From IMG/VR virus record IMGVR_UViG_3300046373_000181, positions 1-61,822 of that record: a stretch of 61,822 nucleotides of DNA; one strand, 5' to 3'. The translations under genes and the position numbers were made by a program. Within the stretch, counting starts at the first letter, position 1; the number at the start of each line of letters is the position of its first letter. Below the pieces are notes generated by a model. That model was not told the DNA's origin, did no database searches, and saw only the letters and a program-made list of their open reading frames with translations. This document shows positions 696-57,559 of the stretch, piece after piece. The stretch is from a virus.

Positions 696-944
696 ATGAA
701 CTATCAACTATTCTGCCATATCCTGAACGACAGTCTGATTTTCGAGCCAACACCACTGGTCACCCCGGACGTATGGGAGGAGTGGCAACAGGAATTCTAC
801 ACCGATTTTAAGGAGCATAGTGTTAGTCGCGACGCATCACTATCCGATAAGGAGAAAGTCACCCAGTGGGTGCGGGACGCCTTTTCGGAATACAGTTTTG
901 ATACCCATAATTTTCAGCTAAAGCCAGAATTTATACAGCCATGA
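696..944 (+). CDS. hypothetical protein, 82 aa
   Basis: An acidic protein of 82 residues with no recognised domain. It begins 8 bp after the previous stop and its stop overlaps the ATG of the methyltransferase by 4 bases (ATGA), so it is probably co-translated with it. Confidence 0.6.
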   Translation: MNYQLFCHILNDSLIFEPTPLVTPDVWEEWQQEFYTDFKEHSVSRDASLSDKEKVTQWVRDAFSEYSFDTHNFQLKPEFIQP

Positions 945-1699
945 AAGTAATGGATCTATTTGCAGGAATCGGCGGCTTTTCCGTGGCCGCTCACGCAATG
1001 GGATGGGAAACCGTCGTGATGGTTGAATGGGACAAAAAACGCCGACTATGGCTACAAAAAATCTATCCTCAGACCTTTATACATGGAGATATTGACACCT
1101 TCGATAATAGCCCCTACCGCAACTCAATTGACCTTATTTGCGGTGGTGAGCCCTGTCAGGGAAATAGTATTGCCGGAAACCGTAAAGGAGTATCCGACCC
1201 CCGTTTCAAGTGGCCGGCTTATTTACGGCAGGTTGATGAGGTCGCCCCGCTTTGGGTCGTTAACGAAAATGTTACCGGTTCAATTTCTAACGGAATACTG
1301 GACCGAAAGATCAGTGATCTGGAAGCAATCGGTTACGCCTGCTGGCCGCCCCTTGTTATCCCTGCACGTGCAGCCGGATGCCATCACGAACGGGAGCGGG
1401 TATATCTCGTTGCCTACTCCCTGCGCACAGGACGGCGGCAACTCAACACTTCCGCCCTCCCAGCTGAGCAAACGAAAGGGAATGTATGGAACGGTGCCCA
1501 GCGCCCTGCTCCACTTGGGCCAGTTACCCGGTACGCCAATTCATCCGAGATTTTACGAGCGGCTGATGGGCTTTCCAGTGGGATACCTGCCTCTGACAGA
1601 AACAAGGCCATTGAGTCCTACGGAAATGCCGTAGTACCCCAGATTCCCTACAAGATTTTTCAAGCTATCCAGCACACCGAAAACACCACCACACCATGA
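941..1699 (+). CDS. DNA (cytosine-5) methyltransferase 1
   Basis: Transfers a methyl group from S-adenosylmethionine to C5 of cytosine in DNA. The C5-methylase motifs are in order: motif I DLFAGIGGF (residues 5-13), motif IV with the catalytic Cys in EPCQ (C72), motif VI ENV (109-111), motif VIII RERV (about 151-154) and motif X GNAVVP (228-233). The target-recognition stretch between VIII and X is short. At 252 residues it is compact, like other phage orphan methylases. No nuclease partner is visible, so protection from host restriction or gene regulation are the likely roles. An unusual +1 frame runs through the gene (see 1023-1634). Confidence 0.93.
   Translation: MKVMDLFAGIGGFSVAAHAMGWETVVMVEWDKKRRLWLQKIYPQTFIHGDIDTFDNSPYRNSIDLICGGEPCQGNSIAGNRKGVSDPRFKWPAYLRQVDEVAPLWVVNENVTGSISNGILDRKISDLEAIGYACWPPLVIPARAAGCHHERERVYLVAYSLRTGRRQLNTSALPAEQTKGNVWNGAQRPAPLGPVTRYANSSEILRAADGLSSGIPASDRNKAIESYGNAVVPQIPYKIFQAIQHTENTTTP
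1023..1634 (+). CDS. overlapping +1-frame ORF inside methyltransferase 1
   Basis: A 203-codon open frame lies entirely inside the methylase gene, one base ahead of its frame. Its last third carries ordered words such as LPTPCAQDGG and ERLMGFPVG, which I recall from a family of phage proteins often annotated as methylases or hypothetical. The methylase frame of the same bases reads LVAYSLRTGRR and AADGLSSGI, also normal for C5 methylases. The +1 stop (TAG 1632-1634) falls inside the codons of motif X. It could be a frameshifted C-terminus, a separate overprinted protein, or an untranslated relic. Expression is not shown. Confidence 0.4.
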   Translation: MNGTKNADYGYKKSILRPLYMEILTPSIIAPTATQLTLFAVVSPVREIVLPETVKEYPTPVSSGRLIYGRLMRSPRFGSLTKMLPVQFLTEYWTERSVIWKQSVTPAGRPLLSLHVQPDAITNGSGYISLPTPCAQDGGNSTLPPSQLSKRKGMYGTVPSALLHLGQLPGTPIHPRFYERLMGFPVGYLPLTETRPLSPTEMP

Positions 1700-1863
1700 C
1701 CACCTACGATACCACCCGCCCCCGTCGCCACCTGATCAACACGCTGCGGGCCCTTGTGCTGATCGCCTTCGTCTGGCTCTGGCACAGCAAATGGAAAGAG
1801 CGCTCCCCGCGTCTGGCCGTGCAGGCGGAGGTGGTGTGCAGTAGTCGAGCGATACCGAAATGA
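1696..1863 (+). CDS. 55-residue membrane protein
   Basis: The ATG at 1696 overlaps the methylase stop (ATGA), a coupled arrangement. The protein has a basic start, a hydrophobic helix of about 17 residues (from LINTLRALVL) and a basic tail, so a single-pass membrane protein is predicted. No homologue recognised. Confidence 0.5.
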   Translation: MTTYDTTRPRRHLINTLRALVLIAFVWLWHSKWKERSPRLAVQAEVVCSSRAIPK

Positions 1864-1887
1864 TTTACAATCATAAATAATCTATCA

Positions 1888-2697
1888 ATGGAATTAGACC
1901 TGTTTCCAGAACACAAAGATTACTCCGGGCAAAAGGTATTGCTAGGCCTTTCGGGTGGTATTAATTCCATGGCTGTACTGTGCTGGCTAGCAGAGGGGCC
2001 AAAAGAGTTCTATCCGGCTGAACTACATCTTTACTACACGCACCTTGTTGAGCACTCACCGGACACATTTCAGTTTGTGGCAGATGGGGTAAGGTGGGCT
2101 CGGAAAGCCTTTCCCTGTGTAATCTTTAGGATGTCAAGGGGTTCAGCTATTGAGTTGTTTAGGCAACAAAAGATGATCCCCCACCCAACTAAGCCACTAT
2201 GCTCAATCCGGCTGAAGATTGAACCCGTAGAACGTTACATGGTCGAAAATGGCATAACAGTAAACTTGGTGGGCTACGTAAAGAAAGAAGCCGTTCGGCG
2301 GGCAAGCAGAATGGCAATGCGAACCAAATCTGAATTAAACAATGTGATTTCAAAGGGAATAAGCGTTTCCTTTCCTATCTCGAAATACTCTGATAATTGG
2401 TGCTTTACTATAGTCGATAAGCACATCGGTTGGCATCCGGTGATTTACGATATAAGGGAACGTGGCAAAAAAGTGTTTACGCACAATAACTGTCTGCCTT
2501 GTATGCATATGGAAGAACCTGACCTAAAGGCGACAGCTAAACACTACCCTAAATACATGAAAAAAGCGCTAGACCTTTCGGGTGAGCTGAAGCGGCATTG
2601 GGGACGTGATGCCGATTCTTTTTACACAACATTTGGAAGGGAGGACTATGAAAAGGAATATAAGCCACAGCCCTGTGAAGTTTGTGCATTTGATTGA
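1888..2697 (+). CDS. PAPS reductase-like / PP-loop ATPase family protein
   Basis: Residues 22-27 form the PP-loop SGGINS of the adenine-nucleotide alpha-hydrolase superfamily (PAPS reductases, DndC, tRNA-thiolating enzymes). Two CxxC pairs (C202/C205 and C263/C266) may bind a metal or Fe-S cluster. It is 269 residues long. Members of this superfamily adenylate or reduce sulfur-containing substrates, but the substrate here cannot be read from sequence. It sits between two cytosine methyltransferases on the same strand, which suggests nucleic-acid or nucleotide modification (inference). dndBDE-type partners are absent. Confidence 0.8.
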   Translation: MELDLFPEHKDYSGQKVLLGLSGGINSMAVLCWLAEGPKEFYPAELHLYYTHLVEHSPDTFQFVADGVRWARKAFPCVIFRMSRGSAIELFRQQKMIPHPTKPLCSIRLKIEPVERYMVENGITVNLVGYVKKEAVRRASRMAMRTKSELNNVISKGISVSFPISKYSDNWCFTIVDKHIGWHPVIYDIRERGKKVFTHNNCLPCMHMEEPDLKATAKHYPKYMKKALDLSGELKRHWGRDADSFYTTFGREDYEKEYKPQPCEVCAFD

Positions 2698-2706
2698 CCC
2701 CGCATA

Positions 2707-2838
2707 ATGGCCAAACGCATTGAGAAGCCCGCCACGCTGCGGGTGGTGCAGGGGATTCTGCCCAATACGGGTATGCCCATGAAAATCACCATCTACGTCA
2801 ACGGGGCGATACGGATCGAACGGCAGGGAAGGATATAA
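2707..2838 (+). CDS. 43-residue hypothetical protein
   Basis: A short basic protein beginning ATG at 2707, nine bases after the previous stop and 24 bases before the second methyltransferase. The C-terminal half (from MKITIYVNG) looks like a small beta hairpin. Kept because of tight operon spacing. No function can be assigned. Confidence 0.4.
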   Translation: MAKRIEKPATLRVVQGILPNTGMPMKITIYVNGAIRIERQGRI

Positions 2839-2862
2839 CGTGTATTTATTAACCAAAGCAAA

Positions 2863-3609
2863 ATGAGCGAATTAACGATGGGTTCTCTCTTCGCCGGAAC
2901 GGGGGGATTCGAGTTGGCAGCCGAACGAAACGGCATCAAACCCCTTTGGAATTGTGAGATAGACGAACTGAAGCGACAGAAATTAAAAAAGAACTTTCCT
3001 GATGTACAACAATACGCCGACATCCGAGATTTGCACTACCCCCAACATGTTGATATCCTCACCGGGGGATTCCCCTGTCAGGACATTAGTTCAGCCGCCG
3101 GTCACCGAGCCACAGGAATTAACGGCCAAAGGTCGGGGCTATGGAAGCACTACGCCCGTTTACTGGGGGAAGTTAGACCTTCAGTCATCGTCTTTGAAAA
3201 CAGCCCAAGAATCGTTGTTTCCGGACTCGAGCAAGTCTTATGCGATCTTGCCCGACACGGGTATGATGCTGAATGGCGCCCTTTTTATGCTGCCCAATTC
3301 GGATACAATCACTATCGAAAACGAACATACGGCGTTGCCTTCGCCCGGAGCTCAGGATGGGAGAGTTGTCTTAAAAAAGGTGGAATCCTTGAAAAAGTAT
3401 TATCAGGCAAAAATCTCCCACCAAAATCACCTCCTGAAGCAGTGCCAACTAAACGGTATGACCGCCATTCAGACTATGAATCTGTACGAATGGATGATGG
3501 GTTTTCCAAAGAACTGGACAAGTTTAGAATCCACGATTGTGGAAACGCTGTAGTTGTCGACATTCCACAAGCCATCTTTTATCAACTCAAACTTCACTGG
3601 CCAATCTAG
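2863..3609 (+). CDS. DNA (cytosine-5) methyltransferase 2
   Basis: A 248-residue C5 cytosine methylase, a distant paralogue of the one at 941. Motif I reads GSLFAGTGGF (7-16), the catalytic Cys is C72 in GGFPCQ, motif VI is ENS (112-114) instead of ENV, motif VIII is YRKRTYGVA (about 151-159), and motif X is GNAVV followed by VDI where PQI is usual (from 227). The ENS and VDI departures are worth noting but do not remove the catalytic Cys or Glu. Like its paralogue it carries a long +1 overlapping frame. Confidence 0.9.
   Translation: MSELTMGSLFAGTGGFELAAERNGIKPLWNCEIDELKRQKLKKNFPDVQQYADIRDLHYPQHVDILTGGFPCQDISSAAGHRATGINGQRSGLWKHYARLLGEVRPSVIVFENSPRIVVSGLEQVLCDLARHGYDAEWRPFYAAQFGYNHYRKRTYGVAFARSSGWESCLKKGGILEKVLSGKNLPPKSPPEAVPTKRYDRHSDYESVRMDDGFSKELDKFRIHDCGNAVVVDIPQAIFYQLKLHWPI
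3002..3553 (+). CDS. overlapping +1-frame ORF inside methyltransferase 2
   Basis: A 183-codon frame, one base ahead of the methylase frame, the same relation as at 1023-1634. It contains, in order, SSLKTAQESLF, PDTGMMLNGALF, ALPSPGAQDG and EWMMGFPKNWTSLE. I recall this order of words (S.W.TSQ.SL, P.SGMM.NG, LPTP.A.D, EW.MGFP..WT) from many phage entries. The +1 stop (TAG 3551-3553) falls in the same motif X codons as in the paralogue. Whether it is translated is unknown. Confidence 0.4.
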   Translation: MYNNTPTSEICTTPNMLISSPGDSPVRTLVQPPVTEPQELTAKGRGYGSTTPVYWGKLDLQSSSLKTAQESLFPDSSKSYAILPDTGMMLNGALFMLPNSDTITIENEHTALPSPGAQDGRVVLKKVESLKKYYQAKISHQNHLLKQCQLNGMTAIQTMNLYEWMMGFPKNWTSLESTIVETL

Positions 3610-4850: not shown

Positions 4851-5228
4851 ATGTTACACACAAGAGCATCCGCAGTTCGATCATTTTACAATAAAATGGA
4901 ATCGGCAATGAATCAGGGCTGGCAGTCTTTTGCCAAAAAGGAAGCGGAGAAAACAAAGCGTAGCAATGCAAGGATAATCCGGCTCTTAAGCGCCATAAAA
5001 GGCACTGAATTTACAATGCAGTTGCAGGCTTACCGAAAGCTGGTCAAATCAGAAACCTCAGCCATGCGCATTACACGAAAACCAACTGGCATTGCGGTTA
5101 CTGACAAACGGTTTGCCCTTATACCCAACGTTTGGCTTGAGCAGAGAGAGTGTGAGGATGGTAAGTATGCCTACGTTTGCATTCAGGTAAAGCCCAATCG
5201 CTGGGTGAGATTTGTCGTTTGGTTTTAA
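4851..5228 (+). CDS. hypothetical protein, 125 aa
   Basis: A basic protein (many Lys/Arg, e.g. KKEAEKTKRSNAR) with a C-terminal part rich in aromatic and beta-prone residues. The charge suggests nucleic-acid contact, but no domain is recognised. Confidence 0.55.
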   Translation: MLHTRASAVRSFYNKMESAMNQGWQSFAKKEAEKTKRSNARIIRLLSAIKGTEFTMQLQAYRKLVKSETSAMRITRKPTGIAVTDKRFALIPNVWLEQRECEDGKYAYVCIQVKPNRWVRFVVWF

Positions 5229-43675: not shown

Positions 43676-45070
43676 ATGACCAACGATCAGCTTACCGCCC
43701 TGCTTACCAATAATGACAAAGCCAAAATCATTACGGCACTCAAGGGAATCAAACCGGAAATTAAACTTGATGAGCTGAAAAAGCAGTTCAGTATACAAGG
43801 TCATGCCGTGTTAGACGTTTCAAAGCGTCCAAACAAAAAAGTAGAAACCGACGAAGGTACGAGTATGGAGTACGTAAATCGGATCGCCGTCAGTCTTCAG
43901 GAGTTGATTTGTGAGCGCGCGGTGTCATTCCTATTTGGCTCTCCGGTCAAGATACAGTGTGACCCGTTGGATGAGAATGAAAACCTTATACTGAAAGCCT
44001 TGAATAGAGTCTTGAAAGATAATAAGATGGACTCATTTAGCGCGGAAGTTGCCCTGGAGTTATTTCGGTCTACAGAAGTAGCTGAATGTTGGTTTGTGGT
44101 GCCCGTTAAAAAGACATACAAACGGTACGGCTTCGACAGCAAAGCAAAAGTTAAATGCACGATGTTTTCACCTTGGAATGGCGATGTACTATACCCATTG
44201 TTTTCAGATACCGGCGATTTGATTGCGTTTAGTCGGGAGTATATAGTTTCTGAAGAGGGAAAGAAAGTGACGTATTTTGAAACATACACAGACGAAGTAA
44301 AGCAAGTCTGGAAGAAAGTCGGACAAGATTGGGAAGCTGAAGAACCCATAACCAATGTAATTGGTAAAATACCCATTGTGTATGCATCCCAAACCGGTCC
44401 AGAATGGGAAAATGTTCAGCCACTAATTGACCGAATTGAAAAGCTTCTTTCAAACCACGCTGACACAACCGATTACCACGCCAGCCCAACGCTGTTCGCA
44501 AAGGGAGAGATCACCATCATGCCGAAAAAGGGAGAGTCAGGCAAACTGATTGCTGGGGATGCCCTTTCAGAACTGTCTTATGTGTCACTCGACCAAGCCC
44601 CCGAAATGGTGAAGTTTGAATACGATACGTTGCTTTCTTTGGTCTATGCCCTCTCACAAACGCCAAACATCAGCTTTGAGGCCATGAAAGGACTGGGTGA
44701 TATATCGGGTGTAGCGTTTGACCGATTGTTTGTCGATGCCAAGCTGAAGGTTAAAAAGAAACGCCGGATCTTTGACGCGTATCTCGAACGAAGAACCAAT
44801 TTGATACTGGCCTTGCTTTCAACCATTAAAACAAACTTGTCCGATACTTGCGATATTATTGACATTGATGCCGTAGTTCAGCCGTTCACTTTTGAAGATC
44901 AAAAGGAAATGGTTGATACGCTGACCACGGCCGTATCGGGCGGGATTCTAAGTAAGAAAACAGCGGTTAAGCTATCGGGCCTGGTAGACGACGTAGATAA
45001 GGAATTTGATCAGATAACCGAGGAGGAAGCAACGGCCAACACCCTAAACATTGCCCCTGGCGCTATATGA
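43676..45070 (+). CDS. portal protein (SPP1 gp6-like)
   Basis: 464 residues. The N-terminal and core pattern (MEYVNRIAVSLQELICERAVSFLFG, YDTLLSLVYALSQTPNISFEAMKG..SGVAFDRLF) matches the Gp6-type portal family. Forms the dodecameric DNA channel at one capsid vertex. It overlaps the next gene by 4 bases. Confidence 0.88.
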   Translation: MTNDQLTALLTNNDKAKIITALKGIKPEIKLDELKKQFSIQGHAVLDVSKRPNKKVETDEGTSMEYVNRIAVSLQELICERAVSFLFGSPVKIQCDPLDENENLILKALNRVLKDNKMDSFSAEVALELFRSTEVAECWFVVPVKKTYKRYGFDSKAKVKCTMFSPWNGDVLYPLFSDTGDLIAFSREYIVSEEGKKVTYFETYTDEVKQVWKKVGQDWEAEEPITNVIGKIPIVYASQTGPEWENVQPLIDRIEKLLSNHADTTDYHASPTLFAKGEITIMPKKGESGKLIAGDALSELSYVSLDQAPEMVKFEYDTLLSLVYALSQTPNISFEAMKGLGDISGVAFDRLFVDAKLKVKKKRRIFDAYLERRTNLILALLSTIKTNLSDTCDIIDIDAVVQPFTFEDQKEMVDTLTTAVSGGILSKKTAVKLSGLVDDVDKEFDQITEEEATANTLNIAPGAI

Positions 45071-46125
45071 CCCGCCCTTTATCCAAATGGGAGTTAGAAC
45101 ACCTCTCGCGCATGGATGCCTACGCCCGGCAGGTCGAACGGCTCTACCGGTCGCTAATCGATGAGGTGGCCAGAAGCGTAGCCCAAAGCAGCGTTACCAG
45201 CAAAGACACACCCTTTAGCTTTGACGACTACCCACTGGCGAGGATAAAGGTGGATATACTCTTATCAACCCTGGCCAATAATGTGCAGGTGCTGATCGGT
45301 AGTGGAACAGGCTCGGCCTGGAATCTCTCGAATAGCAAGAACGATGAGCTGGTATCGAACGTGTTTGCCGATGCCGGTATCAGCGAATCCCGACTATCCC
45401 CGTTCAACCAGCGCAACCTGGATGGACTGGTCAGCTTTCAGGCCCGAAGTGTGAACGGGCTCACGCTGTCAAACCGGGTCTGGACTTACTCGCAGCAGTT
45501 CAGAGGAGAATTAGAACTGGGTATTGATACGGCGCTACTGGAGGGAACCTCAGCCAGTAAACTAGCCACACGGCTCAAAAAGTATCTCAACAGGCCCGAT
45601 GATTTGTTTCGGCGGGTACGAACGAATCGGGGTAACCTGGTGCTATCCAAACACGCGGCTGCGTTTCATCCCGGCCAGGGTGTGTATAAAAGTTCGTACA
45701 GGAACGCGGAACGGTTAGCGCGAACCGAAATTAACACCGCCTATCGAACGGCGGATTTCGAACGCTATCAACAGTTGCCGTTCGTAGTGGGTATCCGGGT
45801 GCAGCGCAGCAACAATACCAAATCATCCTGTGACGTTTGCCCATCCTTAGTTGGGATCTATCCAGCCAACTATAAGTTTGCAGGATTCCACGCAAATTGT
45901 CGATGTTTCACCACAACGATACTGGCAACAAAAGAAGAACTATCTCAGCTAACCCGCTCCCTAATGGCTGGCAATGGCGTTGGTAGCTTTCAAAGCCGCA
46001 ATGAAGTCAAGGGAGTGCCCGCCAATTACACCGACTGGATTGAGAAGAACCGAGAACGACTGAGCCGGGCTAAAAGCCTGCCCCAGTTCATTACGGACAA
46101 CCCGGTGTATAGTGGTGGGCTTTAA
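45067..46125 (+). CDS. minor head protein (Mu gpF / SPP1 gp7-like)
   Basis: 352 residues. ARTEINTAYRTADFERYQ and CDVCPSLVGIYP..FAGFHANCRC are the signature of the phage Mu gpF-like head morphogenesis domain, with paired Cys/His. Few copies are incorporated at the portal in known systems. Last gene of the rightward packaging operon. Confidence 0.85.
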   Translation: MTRPLSKWELEHLSRMDAYARQVERLYRSLIDEVARSVAQSSVTSKDTPFSFDDYPLARIKVDILLSTLANNVQVLIGSGTGSAWNLSNSKNDELVSNVFADAGISESRLSPFNQRNLDGLVSFQARSVNGLTLSNRVWTYSQQFRGELELGIDTALLEGTSASKLATRLKKYLNRPDDLFRRVRTNRGNLVLSKHAAAFHPGQGVYKSSYRNAERLARTEINTAYRTADFERYQQLPFVVGIRVQRSNNTKSSCDVCPSLVGIYPANYKFAGFHANCRCFTTTILATKEELSQLTRSLMAGNGVGSFQSRNEVKGVPANYTDWIEKNRERLSRAKSLPQFITDNPVYSGGL

Positions 46126-52253: not shown

Positions 52254-52913
52254 CTAGGCGATCATTTCAATACGACGCGTCGGCCAAAGCTCTCGAACGA
52301 TGGCTTCTGCATTAGACGAGTTCAACAGACGGTCTTCACGTACCTTCGTTGGCTCCAGTCCTTCAATGCGAAAGCTATCCCGAACTTGCTGGCGATAAAC
52401 TGCAATCATATTATCAAAATCGGCCATCATGGTGGTATGGTTACTAGACACCTGGAAAGACGGGTCGAGTTTTTTAAGCATATATTCGAACATGCCGACC
52501 GTCTTAGTCATGTGGCTAACTTTCTCCATGGCTAGATTGAAATTACCCTGCATTTCAATAAACTGATCATACAGGGATTCGTAGCGTCCTTTCCAGTCTA
52601 TTCCTTCGGGGCTTAACCCTACAGCCAAAACGGGCGAAGGAGTAGTAACCATTAGACTTTTCGGCATCTCCCATTCAAGTCCCTCTTTGTCTGAATATAT
52701 CGCGTCAAGACTTAGTTTAGGAACTACTCGCTTAAGTGCCTTAATAGTAGGCGTGGCCGGAAAGGTGCGATTGTCCCTCATATTATAGAACGTTTGAGGA
52801 CTTAGCCCCGTAGCTTTCGCAATAGCCTGCGCTCGACCATTTTTGTCTACACATTCCCACAATTTGGCATTCATTAGCCTTTGTAAGTTGTCATTATTTC
52901 CGTTTGTTTTCAT
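52254..52913 (-). CDS. CI-type repressor
   Basis: I use the ATG at 52913 (MKTNGNND), giving 219 residues. The N-terminal domain has a helix-turn-helix (GRAQAIAKATGLSPQTFYNM). The C-terminal domain is helical and does not show the S24 self-cleavage pattern, so inactivation is more likely through an antirepressor (two are present) than through RecA cleavage (inference). It is divergent from the early operon. Confidence 0.75.
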   Translation of the reverse strand: MKTNGNNDNLQRLMNAKLWECVDKNGRAQAIAKATGLSPQTFYNMRDNRTFPATPTIKALKRVVPKLSLDAIYSDKEGLEWEMPKSLMVTTPSPVLAVGLSPEGIDWKGRYESLYDQFIEMQGNFNLAMEKVSHMTKTVGMFEYMLKKLDPSFQVSSNHTTMMADFDNMIAVYRQQVRDSFRIEGLEPTKVREDRLLNSSNAEAIVRELWPTRRIEMIA

Positions 52914-52920
52914 TTTTTTA

Positions 52921-52960
52921 TCCAATCACGTTGTAATTTATCCAATCATGTTTATATTTG
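52921..52960 (+). promoter_or_regulatory. early promoter with paired operators
   Basis: TTG (52931-52933), 19 bases, TATATTTG (52953-52960, exact -7). Operator copies TCCAATCACGTTGT (52921-52934) and TCCAATCATGTTTA (52941-52954) lie 20 bp apart and cover both boxes. The same module recurs at 57938-57978. Repressor binding would block the rightward early operon. Confidence 0.78.
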
Positions 52961-53311: not shown

Positions 53312-54808
53312 ATGATCCAATTACGGCCTTATCAGGAGGACAGCGTTGCTGCCCTAAGGGATAACTTCCGCCAAAAAAAACGGCGCGTTATTCTTTGTGC
53401 TCCAACAGGGAGCGGTAAAACAGTGACGTTCAGTCACTTGGTCTCTTCTACTTTGCAAAAGGATTTGTTCGCTAAAGTATTGATCGTTACCCATCGCACT
53501 GAACTTATTGCTCAGGCTAGCGAGACTCTAGAACGAACTGGTGTGCGATACGAACACATAACGGCGAAGCAAAGCAAGATTAATACTCGTGCTAGATGCT
53601 ACGTTGGCATGGTGAAAACTTACCTCAACCGGATTGCCAAATATCCCGAACTGCTAAACATGAGCCTTGTCATTATTGATGAAGCTCATTACGGAGACTT
53701 TAAAAAGCTGTTCGCTGTACTTCCTGATAATGTCTATGTGATTGGGGTTACTGCCACCCCACTGAGTGCGAGTAAAAACGATCCGCTAAGTAATTACTAT
53801 GATGCAATAGTAAACCCGGTTCAAATCGCTGATCTGATTGAGAACGGCTATTTATGCCCGGCCGTGACCTACGCAGCTAAAATCGATCGATCAAGCCTGA
53901 AGTTGATGGCTGGTGAATATTCGGACGCGTCGCAAATGGATACGTTTGCAAAGCGTGACGTATATGCTGGACTGATTAGCAAATACCTGCAATTCTGTAC
54001 TGAGGGTGAGCAGTACAAAAAGACAATCGTCTTCAATGTGAATGTCGCTCATTCAAAAGCGGTTGCATCAGAATTCAATCAAGCCGGTATTCCTGCTGTA
54101 CATATTGACGGAGAGACCGATGATATTGAGCGGGATCGGGCTATAAAGGCTTATAAGCGTGGCGAATATCGGGTCATCTGCAATGTAGGGCTACTGAATG
54201 CAGGGTTTGATGACCCCAGTACCGAGTGCGTCATTATGAACCGGGCCACAACCAGCGTTCCTCTCTGGCTTCAATCCTGCGGGCGCGGATCACGTCCCTA
54301 CCCTGGCAAAAGTAAATTCATTATTCTGGATATGGGTGATAACTGGACCGAGTTGGGCCTATGGGAGCAGCCTCGCCCCTGGGAAGAACTTTGGAATAAA
54401 AAGAGAAAAGCTTTAGACAAAATTGGGGTTCCCGCCATCAAAACATGCCCCCAGTGTGAAGCCCTGATTTCCATTTCGGCACGTGAATGCCCTGAGTGTG
54501 GTCACGTGCTGCCAGTGAAAGAAAAAGAGCCCCCCCCTGAAGCCGAATTTATTGAGGTTGGCAATACGGAAGAACTTTTAAAAATGGCAAGCCGCGCTAA
54601 CTGGCCATCACTTGCCGTACCCGATTTAGAGCAAATAAGGCTACTTAAAAATTACGCAAAAACGTGGCCTTATTATGTGATTAGTGACCGGGCAACTACG
54701 GAAGATGAATTCCGAAAACAACTTCGAGAATTAGGAAAAATTCGAGGCTACAAACGAGGTTTTGAAAATTACGTCCAATACCCTTACACCGCACAATCTG
54801 CCCAATGA
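53312..54808 (+). CDS. superfamily 2 DEAD/DEAH helicase
   Basis: 498 residues from ATG 53312 (MIQLRPYQED). Motif I APTGSGKT (30-37), motif II DEAH (about 123-126), motif III VTATPLS, C-terminal motif V/VI (NAGFDDPSTECVIMNRAT, LQSCGRGSRPYPGK). A zinc ribbon (CPQC..CPEC, about 379-396) follows, then a C-terminal domain. Related to the phage and type III restriction helicases. Probably unwinds DNA in replication or recombination. It overlaps the primase gene by 4 bases. Confidence 0.9.
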   Translation: MIQLRPYQEDSVAALRDNFRQKKRRVILCAPTGSGKTVTFSHLVSSTLQKDLFAKVLIVTHRTELIAQASETLERTGVRYEHITAKQSKINTRARCYVGMVKTYLNRIAKYPELLNMSLVIIDEAHYGDFKKLFAVLPDNVYVIGVTATPLSASKNDPLSNYYDAIVNPVQIADLIENGYLCPAVTYAAKIDRSSLKLMAGEYSDASQMDTFAKRDVYAGLISKYLQFCTEGEQYKKTIVFNVNVAHSKAVASEFNQAGIPAVHIDGETDDIERDRAIKAYKRGEYRVICNVGLLNAGFDDPSTECVIMNRATTSVPLWLQSCGRGSRPYPGKSKFIILDMGDNWTELGLWEQPRPWEELWNKKRKALDKIGVPAIKTCPQCEALISISARECPECGHVLPVKEKEPPPEAEFIEVGNTEELLKMASRANWPSLAVPDLEQIRLLKNYAKTWPYYVISDRATTEDEFRKQLRELGKIRGYKRGFENYVQYPYTAQSAQ

Positions 54809-57000
54809 TGACTACAGAATCAAAAAGCCCGGCAATTTCTTTATATCGTGACGTAACCGATACGGGCGGAACGGAAATTATTTTGCGTGATTTTTTTGAC
54901 GGTATTGCTACTGGAAGGTGGCAAAAAGAAGTCGAAGAAATACGGGCATTAAAAGGAAACGAATCTGCCCAAAAAGCAAAAAAAATCAAACAACAAAATG
55001 TAATTATTGGCGGTACATCCAACGCGGCCACTAATACAACCATGCGCGAATTATCGGGCAAAATGGCTGTTGACTTTGATGATTTAGGCGATGAGCTGGA
55101 AACGGTTAGACTTGAATTAAATAACGACCAGCATACATTTGCTTCGTTTAAATCAATTCGTGGTGAGGGGCTATGCGTTATTATTAATATACAGCCTGAA
55201 CGTTGGGAAGAAGCCTGGGAAGGGGTTAAGCTTTATTACTTTCAGAAGTACGGGCGGTTAGTTGATAAAAGTACCGGCAATATTGCAAGGCGTCGCTTTG
55301 TTTCGTATGACCGGGATATTTATGTCAATGAGAAAGCAACACTCTTTAAACTGTATCCGAAAAAAGAACGTAAAGCCCCAAAGCCACAGGGAACATTCAT
55401 TCACACATCAAACGATGTTGAGTATATTCTGGAACAGATTGAGCGACGGGCATTAGATCTAACCAGCGATTACGATACTTGGTTTAAAATGGGCTTTGCC
55501 TTGGTTGCTGAATACGGAGAGAATGCCCGGGAATACTTCCACCGACTAAGCCAGTATCATCCAAAATACCGCCCTGACGAATGTGATAAGACGTTTTCGT
55601 ATCTACTTCGGTATGGTGCCCGGCAAATAACGATTAAGACGTTTTATTATCACGCTAAGCTGGCGGGGCTGGAAACGATGACACCCCGCACCAAAGAGAT
55701 TGCTCGTACAGCTACGATGCAGAAGCGGCAAAAGTTAAAAGCGGATGATGTTGTCGACTCTCTGGTAAAGGTGGGTGGGGTGGGCCGGGATGAAGCCGAA
55801 AACATTGTAAAGCAGGTCTATGAAAGTGTAGAAGAGATTCAAACCGATGATACACTATTCGATCAGCTTGAATTTTTTTTGCGGCAAAATTATCCAATGC
55901 GACGTAATGAAATATCCAGGTATATAGAAGATGAATCTGGTAAGAGTTTAATTGACGACGATTTCAATGGGATATGGGTTCATGCCGTAAAAGTTTTAGG
56001 TGATCGAGTATCGGATAAAATGGTGAATAAATTAATTCACTCTTCTTTTACGCCTACGTATAATCCGATTAAGGATTTTTTCAGAGACTATTCTTATCGA
56101 AAGCCAACAGGATTAATTAAAGCATTGGCTGATACAATTGAATCAGATACGGGACTTGGTCCTAGTGAATTTTTTCCCAACTATGCAGAGGTGTTTATTC
56201 GAAAATGGATGATCGGCATCATTTCCGCTGTTTTTGGAGAACACTGTGAATTGCTATTGACTTTGACCGGAGAGCCAGGAACAGGAAAAACAGAATGGTT
56301 TCGTAGGCTATTGCCTCCAGAATTAGCCGTTTACTTTGCCGAAACAACGTGGCCAATTACAAAAGATACGGACATGCTGATGTGCGAAAACCTAATCACT
56401 TTTAATGATGAGTGGAAAGGGAAAACGGTAAAGGATCCGGAAACTTTAAAAGGTTATGCTAGCGTGGACCGCTTCACTTTGAGAGAGCCTTACGGTAAAT
56501 CTTTCGTGAAACGTCGGCGCTTAGCAGTAATGTGTGGCACATCAAACCCAACTCGAATAATTGCTGATGCGAGTAATAACCGGAAAGTTATTCCTATCAA
56601 TGTCTTGTCTATAAATTTTGAAGCTTATAATTCAATAGACAAGATTGATCTTTTTATGGAAGCCTTTCATGCCTATATGAATGGAGAGCGACACCACTTG
56701 ACAAAGGACGAAATAAAACGCTTCAACGAAAGCACCAGCGGTTTTGATGATGCATCGATAGAACGGCAGATTATTGATGAATACTTTGCAGTGCCGACCG
56801 GCGCAGGTGGTGAGCCGGTACAATGGATTAGCACACATGAAATCCAAACAAAATTGGAAGTGTGGGCTAACAATAGAAAGCTGGACAACCGTAAGATCGG
56901 GCATGAGTTGCAGTCGGCTGGCTTTAAACGTCGCCAGCGCCGGGGTGAATACGGCAAACAGTTCTGGGGTTATGATGTAGTTGTCACCAGTAAGATTTAG
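54805..57000 (+). CDS. primase-helicase (BT4734-like N-terminus, VirE helicase)
   Basis: 731 residues. The N-terminal third (ELSGKMAVDFDDLGDELETV..GEGLCVIINI) fits the VirE N-terminal/BT4734 primase-like domain seen in Bacteroidota mobile elements. The C-terminal third has LTGEPGTGKTEWFRR (Walker A about 489-496), DEWKGKTVKDPE and the VirE pattern TSNPTRIIADASNNRKVIPI. Likely replication initiator and helicase. Its 3' end carries the first iteron of the origin. Confidence 0.88.
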   Translation: MMTTESKSPAISLYRDVTDTGGTEIILRDFFDGIATGRWQKEVEEIRALKGNESAQKAKKIKQQNVIIGGTSNAATNTTMRELSGKMAVDFDDLGDELETVRLELNNDQHTFASFKSIRGEGLCVIINIQPERWEEAWEGVKLYYFQKYGRLVDKSTGNIARRRFVSYDRDIYVNEKATLFKLYPKKERKAPKPQGTFIHTSNDVEYILEQIERRALDLTSDYDTWFKMGFALVAEYGENAREYFHRLSQYHPKYRPDECDKTFSYLLRYGARQITIKTFYYHAKLAGLETMTPRTKEIARTATMQKRQKLKADDVVDSLVKVGGVGRDEAENIVKQVYESVEEIQTDDTLFDQLEFFLRQNYPMRRNEISRYIEDESGKSLIDDDFNGIWVHAVKVLGDRVSDKMVNKLIHSSFTPTYNPIKDFFRDYSYRKPTGLIKALADTIESDTGLGPSEFFPNYAEVFIRKWMIGIISAVFGEHCELLLTLTGEPGTGKTEWFRRLLPPELAVYFAETTWPITKDTDMLMCENLITFNDEWKGKTVKDPETLKGYASVDRFTLREPYGKSFVKRRRLAVMCGTSNPTRIIADASNNRKVIPINVLSINFEAYNSIDKIDLFMEAFHAYMNGERHHLTKDEIKRFNESTSGFDDASIERQIIDEYFAVPTGAGGEPVQWISTHEIQTKLEVWANNRKLDNRKIGHELQSAGFKRRQRRGEYGKQFWGYDVVVTSKI

Positions 57001-57319
57001 CTGTCACCAGTCTGTCACCAGTAATTTTTAAGGCAGTGGTGACAGATAGAAAATTGAAAATCAGTGCTTTATCTATATAGTAACCACTGTCACCAGTAAT
57101 ATTATATATAAAGCACAGGAGAGAGAGATAAATAATAATAAATTAAGGGGTTGTAAGGGGTAGTGAAGTAAGGTAGTATGTGTGTCGTATGTATAAGCAA
57201 AATCCAAGCAAAATACTGGTGACACTGGTGACAGCATTTAACTCGCTAATAAACAGCAGATTATCTGTCACCAAAGACGAAAATTGATTAGTGACAAACA
57301 ATAAAAACAGTGGTGACAG
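56981..57319. repeat. iteron cluster, probable replication origin
   Basis: Nine copies of CTGTCACCAGT or its complement (0-2 mismatches): + at 56981, 57001, 57012, 57087, 57265; - at 57035, 57215, 57224, 57309. Inverted arms GTGCTTTAT (57064-57072) and ATAAAGCAC (57108-57116) flank the central copy, next to an AT-rich tract (57098-57150). No gene lies in 57001-57319. Directly behind the primase-helicase gene, this is the best origin candidate. Confidence 0.85.
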
Positions 57320-57559
57320 ATGAAAAAGACAGACATTGAGTTTTACAAAGTCCGGGTGGCGACACTACGTAAGGAATTCAAAACGCTAAGCGAGTATGAA
57401 GCAATTCGATTAATTCAGGAAGAAACTAGGAATGACTTGCTTGATAAGTGGCATCAAGACTTTATTAAAGCCCATGTAATAAGCAGCTTAGACAATACGC
57501 CAACCGCACTAGAAAAGATTGCAATGATTTTAGATGAACGCTTACCTCACCAAATTTAA
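57320..57559 (+). CDS. hypothetical helical protein, 79 aa
   Basis: Charged helices (YKVRVATLRKEFKTLSEYEAIR). The ATG follows the last iteron with no gap, so origin binding could also control its expression. No domain recognised. Confidence 0.6.
   Translation: MKKTDIEFYKVRVATLRKEFKTLSEYEAIRLIQEETRNDLLDKWHQDFIKAHVISSLDNTPTALEKIAMILDERLPHQI

Follow-up and report, generated by a model that had tools for sequence, protein, structure and literature searches.

A mirrored iteron array behind the primase-helicase gene of a temperate phage is a probable replication origin of the PICI/P4 kind

INTRODUCTION

The initiator of satellite phage P4 of E. coli, the alpha protein, combines a primase, a helicase and a C-terminal winged helix that binds the origin. 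The primase domain of alpha is of the Toprim type (PMC4234260). SaPI and SCCmec elements have their origin immediately after the helicase gene, and the helicase binds it with its C-terminal domain; at the SaPI origin there are apparently two hexamers (PMC7581432). Cch2, the SCCmec initiator helicase, uses that domain to bind short direct repeats that immediately follow its gene (PMC7581432). The origins of PICIs consist of an AT-rich region between two sets of iterons, and a rep-ori segment from one PICI, EcCICFT073, drives plasmid maintenance (PMC6092414). The two-sided organization was described as unique to the PICIs and as found in no other known replicon (PMC6092414). Finally, for the archaeal plasmid pRN1 the proposed origin is a large stem-loop, and it follows a gene whose product is a primase-helicase ending in a winged helix (PMC4234260).

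Here, we analyze a repeat array in a virus record of 61,822 bp (IMG/VR IMGVR_UViG_3300046373_000181), the whole of which is the window. A preliminary description had read the array as a plasmid-like, nine-copy iteron origin behind a primase-helicase gene. We compared it with the PICI and SaPI origins by their published descriptions and with P4 by its annotated repeats. The array probably is the origin of a temperate phage, and its layout recurs behind related genes with repeats of different sequence.

RESULTS

The window encodes an integrase, a terminase small subunit, a portal, a major head protein and a tape-measure protein, and by these genes the element is a complete temperate tailed phage of the Spirosoma prophage type. 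Its nearest kin are prophages of Spirosoma and Fibrisoma. A PICI is a satellite and takes its capsid from a helper phage, whereas this phage itself encodes a portal, a major head protein, a tape-measure protein and a terminase small subunit. Two other loci drew our attention. A phosphoadenosine phosphosulfate reductase-like gene lies between two DNA methyltransferase genes (941 to 3609, plus strand; PHROG matches), and a head-morphogenesis protein (45067 to 46125, plus strand) also matches a PHROG annotated as "Bxa ADP-ribosyl transferase".

The array lies between the primase-helicase gene (BT4734-like/PriCT-2/VapE; 54805 to 57000, plus strand) and the next gene (57320 to 57559, plus strand). 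The latter encodes 79 amino acids of unassigned function and has a homologue in L012, a relative of 76% identity; a search of its product for family matches, Pfam included, returned none. The nine copies previously listed were all found, on the plus strand at 56981, 57001, 57012, 57087 and 57265 and on the minus strand at 57035, 57215, 57224 and 57309. Four of them match the 11-mer CTGTCACCAGT in full, four differ from it at one position and one differs at two. The constant core is TGTCACCA, of which the entire 61,822-bp record holds nine exact copies, all within 56982 to 57318, whereas no 7-mer exceeded four copies in dinucleotide shuffles of the region (n = 200). The spacing pattern also takes in two degenerate copies, AGTAACCA at 57079 and TGTCACTA at 57289, and the site count is therefore better given as eleven than as nine.

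The sites form two half-arrays facing each other, and we give offsets in base pairs, counted outward from the innermost copy; an x marks an inverted site. The left half has offsets of 0, 9 (degenerate), 51x, 75, 86 and 106. Its exact cores lie on the plus strand at 57088 to 57095 (offset 0), 57013 to 57020 (75), 57002 to 57009 (86) and 56982 to 56989 (106, within the primase reading frame) and on the minus strand at 57037 to 57044 (51, inverted). The degenerate member of the inner pair is at 57079 to 57086 (9, plus strand), where L012 has the closer CTGTAACCA. The right half has offsets of 0, 9, 49x, 72 (degenerate) and 94. Exact cores lie on the minus strand at 57217 to 57224 (0), 57226 to 57233 (9) and 57311 to 57318 (94) and on the plus strand at 57266 to 57273 (49, inverted), and the degenerate copy occupies 57289 to 57296 (72, minus strand). 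The AT-rich tract noted previously is real: between the inner pairs, 57098 to 57215 is 118 bp of 69% AT and is the presumed melting region. By calculated melting energy, the weakest 60 bp, 57097 to 57156, rank among the lowest 0.12% of the record.

Other features of the preliminary description fared unevenly. One copy indeed lies in the last primase codons (56981 to 56991, with the gene ending at 57000) and another stops right in front of the ATG at 57320, and both placements recur in L012. The inverted arms said to frame the copy at 57087 exist and are 14 nucleotides long (57064 to 57077 and 57103 to 57116, 93% complementary), but they are probably incidental, because they were not found in L012. 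The proposed GC-skew check detected no switch at the array, the cumulative minimum being at 53.9 kb, and skew is uninformative here because the genes around the array are all codirectional.

The 731-residue product of the upstream gene has a BT4734-like N-terminal domain, a PriCT-2 domain and a VapE-like helicase domain by Pfam and, in a structure model, a winged helix at its end (mean pLDDT, 84.9; pTM, 0.54). BT4734 belongs to the archaeo-eukaryotic primases (PMC5862659). The invariant residues D90 and D92 fit the first metal-binding motif of the BT4734 family. The best solved relative is 7pds, "PriRep1 with dsDNA" (E = 2.4e-17), the molecule name of which is "Similar to D. nodosus vapE" and which is a SaPI initiator. 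It is also the best fold match (Z = 23.2 over residues 350 to 731), the next best having a Z score of 14.4, and a profile built from 35 relatives matched it as well (E = 1.6e-17). The SaPI5 primase-helicase 7om0 matched the model with a Z score of 11.9. Thus, by the model, the initiator helicase is predicted to share the fold of SaPI Rep and to have a DNA-binding domain at the C terminus.

That C-terminal domain (residues 640 to 731; 56722 to 56997, plus strand) is presumed to bind the iterons. Modeled alone (pLDDT, 81.9), it matched RFX-type winged helices; the top solved folds were eukaryotic RFX DNA-binding domains (Z = 8.4 and 7.5). The P4 origin-binding domain 1ka8 matched with a Z score of 5.8 over 72 residues (root mean square deviation, 2.8), a score that many winged helices reach. 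A sequence-profile search of the domain against the PDB gave no credible relative. We also note that the primases of the record and L012 end in a short tail, VTSKI/VTSRL, encoded by the first iteron (56981 to 57000) and missing in the relatives with other iterons that were compared (L013 to L015).

Arrays of this kind recur behind related genes. Relatives were pooled from loci and a scan of viral contigs to give 56 nonredundant primase genes, and an array was defined by exact 8-mers significant against shuffles; as scan queries, L030 and L044 returned next to no matches. An array lay downstream of the primase gene in 34 of the 56, upstream in 5 of 54 and inside the gene in none of 56. The remaining 22 of 56 had no significant exact 8-mer array downstream, although in some of them a degenerate or displaced array is present. 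Displacement accounts for seeming exceptions, the array lying downstream of the primase gene by 1.2 kb (L013/L038) or 0.7 kb (L018). The preliminary description also held that replication is tied to expression, a claim that is not supported beyond the position of the terminal copies and is not general, because the displaced arrays of L038 and L018 sit far past the primase gene. Two relatives (L072 and L074) have strong CAAGGGTA arrays of seven to eight copies upstream of the primase gene, with a layout that matches in part.

The repeat changes from relative to relative. In the 76% relative (L001/L012), repeat and layout are the same as in the record; at 53 to 54% identity (L014 and L015) the repeat is CTGTCCCTACTT, and further relatives have TAAGCCACC, GGTTACACT, GAAGTGGG and GGTTTACAG. 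The genome of Spirosoma luteum contains TGTCACCAGT 12 times, 6 of the 12 inside its own array. Among named phages, FPSV-S1, lotta8-1 and phi17:1 have an array behind a VapE-type gene, none was found behind that of FoX2, ep3, phi3ST:2 or phi46:1, and DNA similarity searches with the array itself gave only chance hits. Cellulophaga phage phi3ST:2 (L145) has a 12-copy AAGAAGCT cluster near 4945, distant from its VirE gene. Four loci of Bacteroidota genomes (L031, L032, L034 and L035) have short, helicase-only VirE genes. Behind these lie a few repeats that resemble GGTTGTAAG/GGTAGTAAG, which reach significance in L035 only, and a small conserved gene (MKRLRIHSEE...).

Which domain reads the iteron was addressed by covariation among aligned relatives. 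In Mantel tests, iteron divergence correlated at 0.38 with the N-terminal primase domain and at 0.20 with the C-terminal domain, and the C-terminal correlation given the N-terminal domain was 0.05 (P = 0.22). Divergence of the iterons thus followed the N-terminal domain more closely than the C-terminal one. The C-terminal domain therefore stays a presumed reader of the iteron, and covariation was dropped as proof of that role.

As far as the compared arrays go, the layout is constant while the repeat sequence varies. Two mirrored half-arrays surround an AT-rich core, with sites at 0, 9, about 51 (inverted), about 75 and about 86 bp; the core repeats are spaced 8 to 9 bp in tandem, and the centers are 88 to 143 bp wide and 61 to 89% AT. 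For example, L127, with the unrelated repeat AAAGCAGG, has sites at 0, 9, 18, 52x, 73, 83 and 103 on one side and 0, 9, 18, 53x, 74 and 95 on the other. The annotated type I repeats of P4 lie at 0, 10, 53x, 75, 86 and 96 in ori and at 0, 9, 52x, 70x and 84 in crr, and directly inside the inner pair both P4 regions are 70 to 75% AT. Thus, the phage half-arrays resemble P4 ori and crr in the spacing and orientation of their repeats and in having the AT-rich DNA on the inner side.

The likeness was tested with the coordinates of P4 ori alone as the template and a tolerance of 3 bp. Centers were chosen by mirror symmetry, independently of the template; 9 of 40 arrays had no definable center under the rule used and were excluded, and the 31 others, in 21 repeat clusters, gave 62 half-arrays with 186 sites. 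The template matched 109 of the 186 sites, related phages not being fully independent observations, compared to 32 ± 5 (maximum, 48; 2,000 trials) when sites were placed at random and 35 ± 5 (maximum, 53; 5,000 trials) when intervals within arrays were shuffled. A P4 template with flipped orientations matched 12. Removal of the four TGTCACCA loci left 86 matches versus 30 ± 4.5, and the record's own array matched at 6 of 8. The likeness was spotted after the family pattern was known, and the test itself drew on P4 coordinates only. With 21 repeat types, the pattern therefore is not carried along by conserved sequence. A resemblance through TGTCACC between the phage repeat and the P4 iteron TGTTCACC was discarded as evidence, as the two have opposite senses relative to the center.

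DISCUSSION

How the phage starts its replication is suggested by the homology of its protein, by the position of the array behind the gene and by the layout. Because of these, we read the array as the replication origin of the temperate phage, at which the product of the adjacent upstream primase-helicase gene would act, with a probability of roughly 0.87. The preliminary description is thus strongly supported in calling it an origin, as the array recurs behind homologous genes with a conserved layout that matches the annotated P4 ori. "Plasmid-like" was imprecise, however, since inverted half-arrays flank an AT-rich core as in PICI/SaPI elements and P4. Classical iteron plasmids have repeats in the same direction and an initiator without a helicase, whereas the phage has mirrored sites of mixed orientation and a helicase domain. 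In our reading, a complete temperate phage carries an origin of the PICI/P4 kind, one at which the helicase loads itself.

How such an origin would work can be sketched from its parts. The winged helix at the C terminus of the primase-helicase would bind the 8- to 9-bp iterons. Each half-array, with its tandem pair 9 bp apart, an inverted site at about 51 bp and outer sites at about 75, 86 and 95 to 106 bp, would gather the protein, and probably one hexamer would load per half. The paired hexamers, opposed across the AT-rich center, would melt it, encircle single strands and depart in opposite directions for bidirectional replication, and the N-terminal primase domain would lay the primers.

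The known systems each share part of this organization. Like the pri-rep-ori of PICI/SaPI elements, the phage array is directly 3' of a fused primase-helicase gene, and like the origins of SaPI PriRep and EcCICFT073 it has two iteron sets around an AT-rich region; unlike theirs, the primase domain of the phage is BT4734-like. The phage primase domain also differs in type from the Toprim domain of P4 alpha. In P4, ori and crr are kilobases apart and each corresponds to a half, whereas the phage halves are mirrored around one center. We found no second, crr-like region and no TGTCACCA outside the array in the record. SCCmec Cch2 resembles the phage in having iterons directly behind the helicase gene and in C-terminal binding, which is presumed for the phage, but it has three iterons only and a separate primase-polymerase. 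Like the pRN1 origin, that of the phage would lie 3' of a gene for a primase-helicase with a C-terminal winged helix, but pRN1 has a large stem-loop and no iterons.

Three other functions might be served by the array. If it were an operator, downstream transcription would be controlled through a repressor, or the primase, bound to it, and one copy just before the ATG at 57320 and a gene with weak helix-turn-helix matches (52254 to 52925) would suit that role. The repeat is absent elsewhere in the phage, however, and across 37 loci the array keeps its association with the primase although the next open reading frames belong to 20 families. Moreover, eleven sites mirrored about an AT-rich center with P4 ori spacing would be unexpected of an operator, and we consider this function improbable. 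The origin and operator readings would be combined if the origin also repressed its own operon. Partition sites can have clustered short repeats in both orientations, as the array does. A centromere or another segregation or maintenance element seems highly improbable nonetheless: the element has an integrase and thus is probably in the integrated state while silent, the array accompanies the primase from relative to relative, and no partition gene was found in the part of the record's genes that was scanned. Equally improbable is a structured stem-loop of the pRN1 type with the repeats secondary, as the arms around the 57087 copy and the gene order would allow, for L012 keeps the iterons and their spacing where the arms were not found.

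The kind of origin described here is, by analogy, already known from PICI/SaPI elements and P4. What appears to be new is that complete phages have it, that its spacing follows a mirrored rule and that this rule matches P4, although our coverage of the literature is partial and priority is not certain. Whether one ruler (a 0/9 pair, an inverted site at about 52 and outer sites at about 75 and 86 bp) is common to self-loading primase-helicase origins, from complete Bacteroidota phages to satellite P4, seems to us evenly balanced. If it is, a full origin would be a dyad of two half-origins with one hexamer each, and P4 ori and crr would be such half-origins set apart. Because only the spacing would be fixed, the repeat could change freely and give each phage an origin address of its own. 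Perhaps such phage-specific repeats, 21 types in 31 arrays, avert cross-firing between coresident replicons.

Contrary to the statement that no other replicon has it (PMC6092414), the two-sided organization now would extend to complete phages and to dozens of relatives with differing repeats, and the spacing rule fits P4 too. The rule may constrain the geometry in models of how these helicases form opposed rings on double-stranded DNA, and it may help to recognize origins whose repeats are unknown. Finally, the relatives would provide a natural set of initiator-iteron pairs for the study of how origin specificity changes.
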